From: Roseovarius nanhaiticus
GTDB taxonomy: Bacteria; Pseudomonadota; Alphaproteobacteria; Rhodobacterales; Rhodobacteraceae
Assembly (NCBI RefSeq): GCF_900156535.1
Contig: NZ_FTNV01000002.1
Span: forward strand, 186,001-250,000
Direction: 5' to 3'
DNA length: 64,000 nt
The notes beneath the pieces were generated by a model. It was not told the DNA's origin, did no database searches, and was given only the letters and a program-made list of their open reading frames with translations. Below, piece by piece: positions 43,574-45,791 of the stretch. Position 1 is the first letter of the stretch. Each line of letters opens with the position of its first letter. The translations under genes and the position numbers were made by a program.

Positions 43574-44041
43574 TTAGTTCACCGACTTGGCGTCGACGAC
43601 ATCCTCGTCACCGCTCTTGCGGCTCTCGATCGCAATGCGGCGAGGCTTGAGCGCCTCAGGCACTTCGCGCACCAGGTCGATATGCAGCATGCCATCCGCA
43701 TGGGTCGCGGCGGTCGCGCGGACATGATCTGCCAGTTGGAAGCGCCGCTCGAACGCGCGGGTGGCGATGCCGCGATGCAGATAGGTGCGTTCCTGCCCGT
43801 CATCGGCCTTGCGGGCCGAGACGATCAGCGCGCCCTCGCGCAGCTCGACCGACAGGTCGTCCTCGGCAAAGCCGGCAACGGCGACGGAAATGCGCCAGGC
43901 ATCCTCGCCAGTCTTCTCGATATTATAGGGGGGATAGGTCGGCTGCGGGGTATCCGCGGTCAGCACGCGGTCCATCATGTCCGCGATCTGGTCAAACCCG
44001 ACAGTGGCCCGATAGAGCGGGGCCAAATCAAAGTTTCGCAT
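43574..44041 (-). CDS. Small heat shock protein (Hsp20/IbpA type)
   Basis: 155-residue ATP-independent chaperone that holds unfolding proteins. The alpha-crystallin domain spans about 38-130 with YNIEKTGEDAWRISVAVAGF and the closing G-x-L-type motif (GMLHIDLV). The N-terminal opening MRNFDLAPLYRATVGFD is typical of IbpA-type proteins. GGAGG lies 7 bases before the ATG, but is locked in a hairpin (see ROSE-like element). A CTTGAAA heat-shock promoter lies about 120 bases upstream. Confidence 0.95.
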   Translation of the reverse strand: MRNFDLAPLYRATVGFDQIADMMDRVLTADTPQPTYPPYNIEKTGEDAWRISVAVAGFAEDDLSVELREGALIVSARKADDGQERTYLHRGIATRAFERRFQLADHVRATAATHADGMLHIDLVREVPEALKPRRIAIESRKSGDEDVVDAKSVN

Positions 44042-44042
44042 G

Positions 44043-44127
44043 GGTCATCCTCCATTGAGCGATACCATTATGATATGCCTTCCCCTAAGGGACAGGCGGT
44101 CGTAGCGCGGACCCTTGCGGCGTCCGC
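44043..44127 (-). promoter_or_regulatory. ROSE-like RNA thermometer in hsp20 leader
   Basis: Three successive hairpins in the leader, read 5' to 3' on the minus strand. (1) 44127-44107: GCGGAC / GUCCGC. (2) 44097-44077: GCCU(G)UCCC / GGGAAGGC with loop UUAG. (3) 44066-44043: GGUAUC(G)CUC / GAGGAU(G)ACC with loop AAUG. Hairpin 3 hides the GGAGG ribosome site. It contains UCGCU pairing with AGGA around one unpaired G, which is the ROSE signature U(U/C)GCU. On heating, hairpin 3 should melt and free translation. Confidence 0.75.
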
Positions 44128-44134
44128 CTATTAT

Positions 44135-44164
44135 AATTTGGGAGGTGGGCAGCCCCGTTTCAAG
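44135..44164 (-). promoter_or_regulatory. Sigma32 (RpoH)-type promoter of hsp20
   Basis: CTTGAAA (44164-44158), 15-base spacer, CCCAAATT (44142-44135). The -35 is identical to the heat-shock consensus and the -10 is close to CCCATNT. Transcription should start near 44128, giving a leader of ~87 bases that begins with the first hairpin of the thermometer. Confidence 0.75.
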
Positions 44165-44178
44165 AGCTGCCTGGCGCC

Positions 44179-44982
44179 TCACGGCTTGGCGAATTTTGCA
44201 CCGCTGGCCGAGCCACCAAAGCCCAGGTTGTTACTGCGCGGAATGGCACCGGCCGCGCGCGGCGCGGTGCGTAGCGCGCGTTTCAGATCCTCGACGAGGC
44301 CCGGCAATTCCATTCCATAGGCCGTATCCTGATCACCCGCCGAAATCACCGAGACGATGCGCGCGCGCTGCCCCCTGCCGCGCGCGAAAACCGGCGCGCC
44401 CGAGCTGCCGAAGGTCACGTCGCAGTCGAAGGCCATCAGGCCCTGCCCCGCCGCCGTGACCCCGCATTCGCGCTGCCAAGACAGGGCAGCATCGCGCCCC
44501 TGCCCGTAGCTGACGACACTCACATTCAAGCCCGCTTGGGCCTCGGCGCTGGACAGAACGAAGGGGCTGGCCACTGCGGCCAAGATCGGCTCTGCAAGCT
44601 TCAGCAGGGCCACATCGTGGCGGATCATCTGGGCGGTCATCCGTCGTCCGGGGATATATCCATCATGCGCCGCAATGCGCGCCACGCCGGTTTGCGAGAT
44701 AAACTGACCATCGCGCAGCCCCGCACTGAACGTGATAAGATCAGGCGCAATCAGCGCGCCTGCATCGTCATAGACGCAATGCGCCGCCGTCAGCACCAGA
44801 TCGGGCGCAATCAGCGCCCCGCTGCAATAGCCCTTGCCCTCGAGGTCCAGTCGCCCAACGGCCTCCCAGCCGAAAAGGTCTTCACGATCCGTCAGCCGGA
44901 TCAGACTGCTGCCCGCGCCCAGCGGTGCAGCCAGGGCAACAAGCGCGGCAGTGGCCGCGAGGATATCCCGCAGCCGCATCAT
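44179..44982 (-). CDS. Trypsin-like serine protease (tandem copy A)
   Basis: 267-residue exported protease of the chymotrypsin/trypsin fold. A signal peptide (about 1-23) is followed by the catalytic triad: H68 in LTAAHC, D123 in RHDVALL and S194 in GSSGAP. The serine motif GSSGAP instead of GDSGGP is typical of bacterial Glu-type or V8-like members. The stop is at 44179 and the C-terminus reads GAKFAKP, as in copy B. The start overlaps the copy B stop by four bases. Confidence 0.9.
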   Translation of the reverse strand: MMRLRDILAATAALVALAAPLGAGSSLIRLTDREDLFGWEAVGRLDLEGKGYCSGALIAPDLVLTAAHCVYDDAGALIAPDLITFSAGLRDGQFISQTGVARIAAHDGYIPGRRMTAQMIRHDVALLKLAEPILAAVASPFVLSSAEAQAGLNVSVVSYGQGRDAALSWQRECGVTAAGQGLMAFDCDVTFGSSGAPVFARGRGQRARIVSVISAGDQDTAYGMELPGLVEDLKRALRTAPRAAGAIPRSNNLGFGGSASGAKFAKP

Positions 44983-45791
44983 GGCTTGGCAAATTTTGCG
45001 CCGGTCTCGCGCACTTGGCCCACCTCGGCCATGAACGGTCCGTCACCCGCCGTGCCGCCCCCGCCGGAGGCCAGCTCGGCTCGCAACACTTCGAGCGGCA
45101 GTTGCAATTGCGTGCCCAGCGATACCTTGCGACCGTCCACTTCGGCCATGGCCGAGACAACCGAGACGACGCGGGGCACGTCGCCGTCAAAGGTGAAGAT
45201 CGGCGCGCCGGAGCTGCCGTAATCCACATCGCAGGACATGACCAGAACGCCCTCCTGCTTGGCGATCACCTCGCACACCTCCTCCAGCGACGGCGCATCG
45301 GCGCGTCCGCGCGCGTAGCTGACGACCCCCACGCGCTGCCCCGGCTCGGGGCGCACATCGGTCGCAAAGGGCGCGACACGCGCGTTGCGGATGGGATGGC
45401 GCAGCTCCAGAAGGGCCACATCGTTGCGCACCCGCTCGGGCGCGACGGCGCCATCCTGCACGTAACTGGGATGTACGACCGCGCGCCGCACAAAGCGGTA
45501 AGCCGAGGCCCGCCCGTTGCGCCAACCGGCTAAGAATTCGATCTTCTGATGGTCCAGCCGCGCGCCCGTATCGCTGTCATAGAGGCAATGCGCCGCTGTC
45601 AGCACCAGATCGGGCGCAATCAGCGCGCCGGTGCAAAAGCCCCGCCCCGCCAGCTCCAGACGGCCCACCGCCTCCCAGCCGCGCCCGTCATCGCCCGTAT
45701 CCAGCCGTTTAAGCGGCGCCTCCTGAGCGAGCGCCGGCTGCGCAACGCCGCCAAGGCATAGGGCGAGGATGATGAGCGAAATGCGCGACAT
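44979..45791 (-). CDS. Trypsin-like serine protease (tandem copy B)
   Basis: 270-residue paralogue of copy A with a signal peptide (about 1-22), H68 in LTAAHC, D124 in RNDVALL and S194 in GSSGAP. Similarity to copy A extends over the whole domain and the last seven residues GAKFAKP are identical, while the linker before them differs. The upstream neighbour is glcF at 45853 on the same strand (61-base gap). Confidence 0.9.
   Translation of the reverse strand: MSRISLIILALCLGGVAQPALAQEAPLKRLDTGDDGRGWEAVGRLELAGRGFCTGALIAPDLVLTAAHCLYDSDTGARLDHQKIEFLAGWRNGRASAYRFVRRAVVHPSYVQDGAVAPERVRNDVALLELRHPIRNARVAPFATDVRPEPGQRVGVVSYARGRADAPSLEEVCEVIAKQEGVLVMSCDVDYGSSGAPIFTFDGDVPRVVSVVSAMAEVDGRKVSLGTQLQLPLEVLRAELASGGGGTAGDGPFMAEVGQVRETGAKFAKP

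Follow-up and report, generated by a model that had tools for sequence, protein, structure and literature searches.

A ROSE-type leader on an ibpA-type small heat-shock gene of Roseovarius nanhaiticus and its conservation in the Rhodobacteraceae

In a 64,000-nucleotide stretch of the Roseovarius nanhaiticus genome (hereafter the window), a small heat-shock gene, hsp20, is preceded by a promoter-like sequence and by a leader that can fold into three hairpins, the last of which encloses the ribosome site. This arrangement raises the question of whether the gene is controlled twice, at transcription by the heat-shock sigma factor RpoH and at translation by an RNA thermometer of the ROSE family. 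The analysis presented here indicates that the leader is very probably a ROSE-family thermometer of an ibpA-type gene under RpoH transcription.

The leader and its promoter

The features of the locus are the following.

44159 to 44164, minus strand: -35 element CTTGAA of an RpoH (sigma32)-type promoter (sequence, conservation in orthologues)
44135 to 44142, minus strand: -10 element CCCAAATT (sequence, recomputed spacing, promoter conservation)
44042 to 44129, minus strand: 5' leader of about 88 nt, ROSE-type RNA element (full-length RF00435 match, our covariance models R1 and R2)
44107 to 44127, minus strand: hairpin I, unpaired G at 44121 (sequence, covariation)
44077 to 44097, minus strand: hairpin II, unpaired G at 44093 (sequence, covariation)
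44043 to 44066, minus strand: hairpin III, putative thermosensor hairpin, unpaired G at 44060 and 44046 (sequence, alignment)
44049 to 44053, minus strand: Shine-Dalgarno sequence GGAGG, inside hairpin III (sequence, alignment)
43574 to 44041, minus strand: hsp20 gene, IbpA type, 155 aa (PF00011, NCBIfam, identity to E. coli IbpA)

The ATG of hsp20 stands at 44041 and the product is an Hsp20 protein (Pfam PF00011, E 4e-17), which is 48% identical to E. coli IbpA over 138 aa. IbpA is also its best NCBIfam match, but under the equivalog cut-off. When the minus strand is read directly, CTTGAAA (44164-44158) is followed by 15 bases and then by CCCAAATT (44142-44135). From the position of this promoter, transcription would be expected to start at about 44129, just before hairpin I.

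Hairpin I has the sequence GCGGAC-G-CC/GCAAG/GG-GUCCGC and hairpin II the sequence GCCU-G-UCCC/UUAG/GGGA-AGGC. Hairpin III (GGU AUC-G-CUC/AAUG/GAG GAU-G-ACC) comprises nine pairs with a single unpaired G on each side, and in it UCGCU (44062-44058) faces AGGA. An earlier note, made from the sequence alone, had described the promoter, the three hairpins and the GGAGG in the last of them; on the minus strand this description was found to be correct to the base, and so was its account of the nine pairs, the two unpaired G residues and the UCGCU/AGGA pairing of hairpin III.

In order to evaluate the promoter, sequences were scored against CTTGAA-N15-18-CCCANAT (maximum 12, threshold at least 10). 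The window promoter obtained 12/12. At least 10/12 was reached at about -120 in 88 of 106 leaders, versus one of 318 control stretches. Since hairpin I is preceded by the promoter in these 88 leaders, a transcript start downstream of hairpin III, which the earlier note had named as an observation that would contradict it, is unlikely. An RpoH-type promoter accompanies the leader, and its sequence suggests that RpoH is used. In R. sphaeroides, RSP_1572, a member of the Hsp20 family (PMC3413700), is among the listed members of the RpoH regulon (PMC3441632).

The region upstream of hsp20 (44179-45791) is occupied by two tandem genes whose translations, judged by eye, resemble trypsin-like serine proteases. 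Between the end of the first of them and the -35 element there are about 15 bases, and the hsp20 promoter thus almost abuts the protease stop codon.

Conservation, covariation and distribution

The window was first compared with Rfam, and no ROSE match above the gathering cut-off was obtained in the whole 64 kb. RF00435 nevertheless aligned with the leader over its full length (model positions 1-94; 29.9 bits, E 0.01 in 401 bases), under its gathering cut-off of 45 bits, and the leader was the top RF00435 match in the 3.7 Mb genome (E 0.023). ROSE_2 (RF01832) gave 13.9 bits on the window versus a cut-off of 65. Thus the covariance search that the earlier note had proposed was successful as regards the alignment and the rank, and fell short as regards the score. 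As the RF00435 cut-off is a detection threshold, the leader is filed as ROSE-type and not as a curated RF00435 member. Two more RF00435 matches in the genome (24.4 and 17.3 bits) had neither an adjacent hsp20 nor an R2 match and were judged to be due to chance.

Eighty named ibpA/hsp20 orthologue loci were then picked by protein alone, the leader not being consulted. All are from Rhodobacterales where they are named to that level, Roseovarius being nearest. U(U/C)GCU was found shortly 5' of the ribosome site in 80/80 of them. A covariance model, R1, built from 21 leaders recovered 98/98 leaders, and 91/91 in an overlapping earlier run, with E <= 0.0013; in that earlier run, the best match outside the leaders had 15.4 bits. 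The window leader is itself part of the training sets of R1 and of the refined model R2.

In the alignment of the 98 leaders, which was fitted to the covariance model and hence leans towards the structure of that model, 94.8% of the pair cells were standard pairs; the corresponding value was 82.9% for shuffles and did not exceed 61% for slid versions. Cells with double changes numbered 281, versus 87 in shuffles. This covariation signal is carried by hairpins I and II: changes on both sides were seen in 6 of the 8 pairs of the former (98.6% of cells paired) and in 7 of the 8 pairs of the latter (96.5%), that is, in 13/16 pairs. The compensatory changes that the earlier note had suggested looking for among Rhodobacterales leaders are therefore abundant in these two hairpins. 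An alignment of 36 leaders by MAFFT followed by RNAalifold missed hairpin I because loop lengths vary, and covariance-model alignment was used instead.

Hairpin III behaves in another way. Its inner six pairs were formed in 99.5% of cells and its outer three, GGU/ACC, in 68%. The inner AUC-G-CUC/GAG-GAU hardly varies, so that its conservation is one of sequence and it offers little covariation; the outer pairs are lineage-specific. The conservation on which the earlier note had made its proposal depend consequently holds for the inner stem, in which the UCGCU/AGGA core is invariant, and not for the outer one. An unpaired G was present on the 5' arm of hairpins I, II and III in 98, 92 and 98 of the 98 leaders, respectively, and in 32, 28 and 32 of 32 leaders of a wider set.

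The family was searched by using 198 genomes, one per genus. At E <= 1, RF00435 had a match in 56 of them, only one of which was above the cut-off. Twenty-nine non-window loci were retrieved from this search; 28 of them sit directly on an hsp20 orthologue, the exception being L004. R2, built from 98 Rhodobacteraceae leaders, matched 183/198 genera, with one match per genome. Among the 15 negative genera, 11 lack the orthologue and three that possess it do have the leader (20-39 bits); in the last one, the orthologue match begins only at query residue 11. The Rfam cut-off thus misses nearly all ROSE elements of the Rhodobacteraceae.

The sole RF00435 match of the family above the cut-off (L004:1501-1592, genome G101) is associated with a different Hsp20-like protein, MRTSSDITLYAPADWW, whose gene was possibly acquired from another order. 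Two further RF00435 matches, L153:1501-1573 and L147:1501-1578 (32.6 and 35.2 bits), have no recognised IbpA-type hsp20 downstream and represent either truncated genes, other ROSE-controlled genes or chance.

At the same E-value, R2 matched 70 of 289 genomes across the class, versus 18 for RF00435. All the R2 loci examined outside the family stand at the start of an hsp20 of the ibpA type, and covariation is present in the class-wide set too. Furthermore, R2 picked up the leader of E. coli ibpA, an experimentally established ROSE-like thermometer, over its full length (39.9 bits, E 2e-7), and it also matched the Rfam-positive locus L136. These matches point to a common ancestry of the window leader with proven ROSE members. 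Together with the full-length RF00435 alignment and the motif in all 80 orthologues, the E. coli match bears out the ROSE-like identity put forward in the earlier note.

Could the hairpins have arisen by chance in a GC-rich leader? Such an explanation can invoke the score under the Rfam cut-off and the folding of the leader, which was better than that of dinucleotide shuffles by a z of only -2.5, 2/200 shuffles being equally good. It is already refuted by covariation, with compensatory changes across 98/98 leaders and a match in 183/198 genera. In an independent scan in which the identity of the unpaired base was ignored, 94% of the real leaders had hairpin I and 59% had hairpin II, compared with 25% and 4%, respectively, of the shuffled ones. 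We consider the probability of chance hairpins to be negligible.

The genome contains a second hsp20, whose leader is a short form with two hairpins (loci L033 and L198).

G000:C2:560915-560984, minus strand: short ROSE-like leader of the paralogous hsp20 (model R3 match)

This short form consists of CTTG-N18-CCCATAT, one hairpin with the equivalent unpaired G, and then GUC-G-CUU/AAG-GAC. The ROSE motif was present in 30/30 paralogue leaders from 30 genera, as was the promoter, and covariation was detected in their hairpin I. The short-form model R3 matched 167/198 family genera, this genome included. Most genera therefore carry two ROSE elements per genome, one of the three-hairpin and one of the two-hairpin form.

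An unpaired G (44121, 44093 and 44060 in the window) followed by CC/CU opposite GG/AG recurs in all hairpins of both forms. This unit shows little or no variation between roseobacters and E. coli ibpA, and occupies the same positions in A5, A6 and A7.

Proposed action of the leader

The thermometer reading builds on the promoter sequence, the three hairpins with their conservation and covariation, and the homology to known ROSE elements, E. coli ibpA included; opening on warming and translational control are predicted from these. An RpoH-type sigma factor would transcribe hsp20 from CTTGAA-N16-CCCAAAT, and the mRNA would start with the three hairpins. In hairpin III, UCGCU and the AGGA of the ribosome site would form an imperfect pairing around the unpaired G. 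At growth temperature this hairpin would block ribosomes; upon warming, the weak hairpin III would melt and translation would proceed, while hairpins I and II would remain folded as a stable scaffold.

Nearest-neighbour calculations (ViennaRNA) gave a flat accessibility of the Shine-Dalgarno sequence from 15 to 55 C. The same calculations also miss the opening of E. coli ibpA, so that the flat profile decides nothing here. When the first codons were included, a rival fold in which codon 2 pairs with CGC of UCGCU was about equal in stability. As a competitor of hairpin III, this predicted fold could affect the mechanism.

Hairpins I and II combine stability with strong covariation, and a 5' hairpin of Pseudomonas ibpA has been proposed as stabilising (PMC3669281). 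It might thus be supposed that the hairpins merely give stability to a heat-shock mRNA at its 5' end, without temperature sensing. However, conservation is highest in the motif facing the ribosome site, with its invariant unpaired G, which would not be needed for stability, and we regard a purely stabilising role as very improbable.

The leader might also act, mainly or additionally, as an operator for IbpA: the chaperone would bind its own 5' UTR and repress translation until titrated by denatured proteins, so that the leader would sense protein aggregation besides, or in place of, temperature, as the E. coli precedent illustrates. In E. coli and other gamma-proteobacterial IbpA proteins, self-repression occurs via R93, aided by R97, K98 and Y34, and R93 and Y34 have been noted as conserved in alphaproteobacteria (PMC10474464). 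The equivalents of E. coli Y34, R93, R97 and K98 in the window protein are Y36, R95, R99 and R100. Those of Y34 and R93 were found in 109/109 family proteins, in which the R97 and K98 positions are always R or K. One covariance model spans the E. coli and window leaders, and in hairpins I and II more than the pairing is preserved, since the unpaired G and CC opposite GG form an invariant motif. Nevertheless, the known binding is limited to gamma-proteobacteria, the paralogue keeps the R93 equivalent as well, and the conservation of the arginine may serve the structure of the oligomer. An operator role is thus conceivable, but we hold it to be rather unlikely. It would leave the thermometer possible, because both work in E. 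coli.

By analogy, the leader could be a double sensor in alphaproteobacteria as in E. coli, being both a thermometer and a binding site of the encoded chaperone. Free chaperone would then hold translation off, and aggregated protein would lift the repression. We advance this combination tentatively and consider it doubtful. As a speculation, the recurring hairpin unit (stem, unpaired G, CC/CU opposite GG/AG) may be a repeated site for oligomeric IbpA. Marine roseobacters offer a place to probe IbpA self-repression outside the gamma-proteobacteria.

Comparison with known ROSE elements

For the thermometer reading, the window leader was compared with ROSE elements as a known kind. It stands 5' of a small heat-shock gene (PF00011, IbpA-like), and U(U/C)GCU of its last hairpin pairs with the Shine-Dalgarno sequence. 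This hairpin is imperfect, with unpaired G44060, a G being found there in 98/98 leaders, and it is preceded by further 5' hairpins, to give three in total where classical elements have three to four. The usual companion of ROSE, an RpoH-type promoter, is represented by a conserved promoter sequence.

With RF00435, the leader shares a full-length alignment, three hairpins in matching order, the RpoH promoter, an unpaired G in both hairpin I and the Shine-Dalgarno hairpin, and UUGCU/UCGCU opposite AGGA. It differs in that the basal stem of the RF00435 Shine-Dalgarno hairpin, which includes the start codon, does not form, in its shorter hairpin II with an unpaired G, and in its outer stem GGU/ACC, which is CCA/UGG in RF00435.

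E. coli is among the classical ROSE-type elements (PMC3669281). Its ibpA leader (ROSE_2, RF01832) resembles the window leader in gene type, in the unpaired G of all three hairpins and in hairpin II, CCUGUCC/GGAAGG, which is nearly the window sequence; the E. coli protein begins MRNFDL, another likeness. In contrast, its Shine-Dalgarno sequence is AGGAG and lies farther from the AUG. The short ROSE-like ibpA leaders of Pseudomonas share U(U/C)GCU, the sigma32 promoter and the core-flanking G-C pairs, but have two hairpins only (PMC3669281), a form found here on the paralogous hsp20 and not in the window.

ROSE elements are not mainly rhizobial, as the earlier note had assumed: they occur in Caulobacter, E. 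coli, Salmonella and Pseudomonas (PMC3669281), one has been annotated in Gluconobacter (PMC5756330), and a roseobacter case dates from 2011 (PMC3230580). In the literature searched, the roseobacter clade is mentioned this one time before. ROSE-like motifs of ibpA and hspD were found by inspection in Nautella sp. R11 (PMC3230580), which shares clade and gene family with the window; the report covers one strain in one main-text sentence, without structure or comparative analysis. The short form on the paralogous hsp20 agrees with that remark on two genes. What the present analysis adds is the evidence from covariation, the occurrence in almost all genera of the family, the arrangement in two forms, a single model that spans roseobacters and E. 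coli ibpA, and the recognition that the Rfam cut-off overlooks nearly all of these elements. With these elements, marine roseobacters constitute a natural series, over many growth temperatures, in which the tuning of the Shine-Dalgarno hairpin could be followed. In the Rhodobacteraceae, where ROSE had been remarked on in a single strain, it is now supported by covariation as a near-universal feature.
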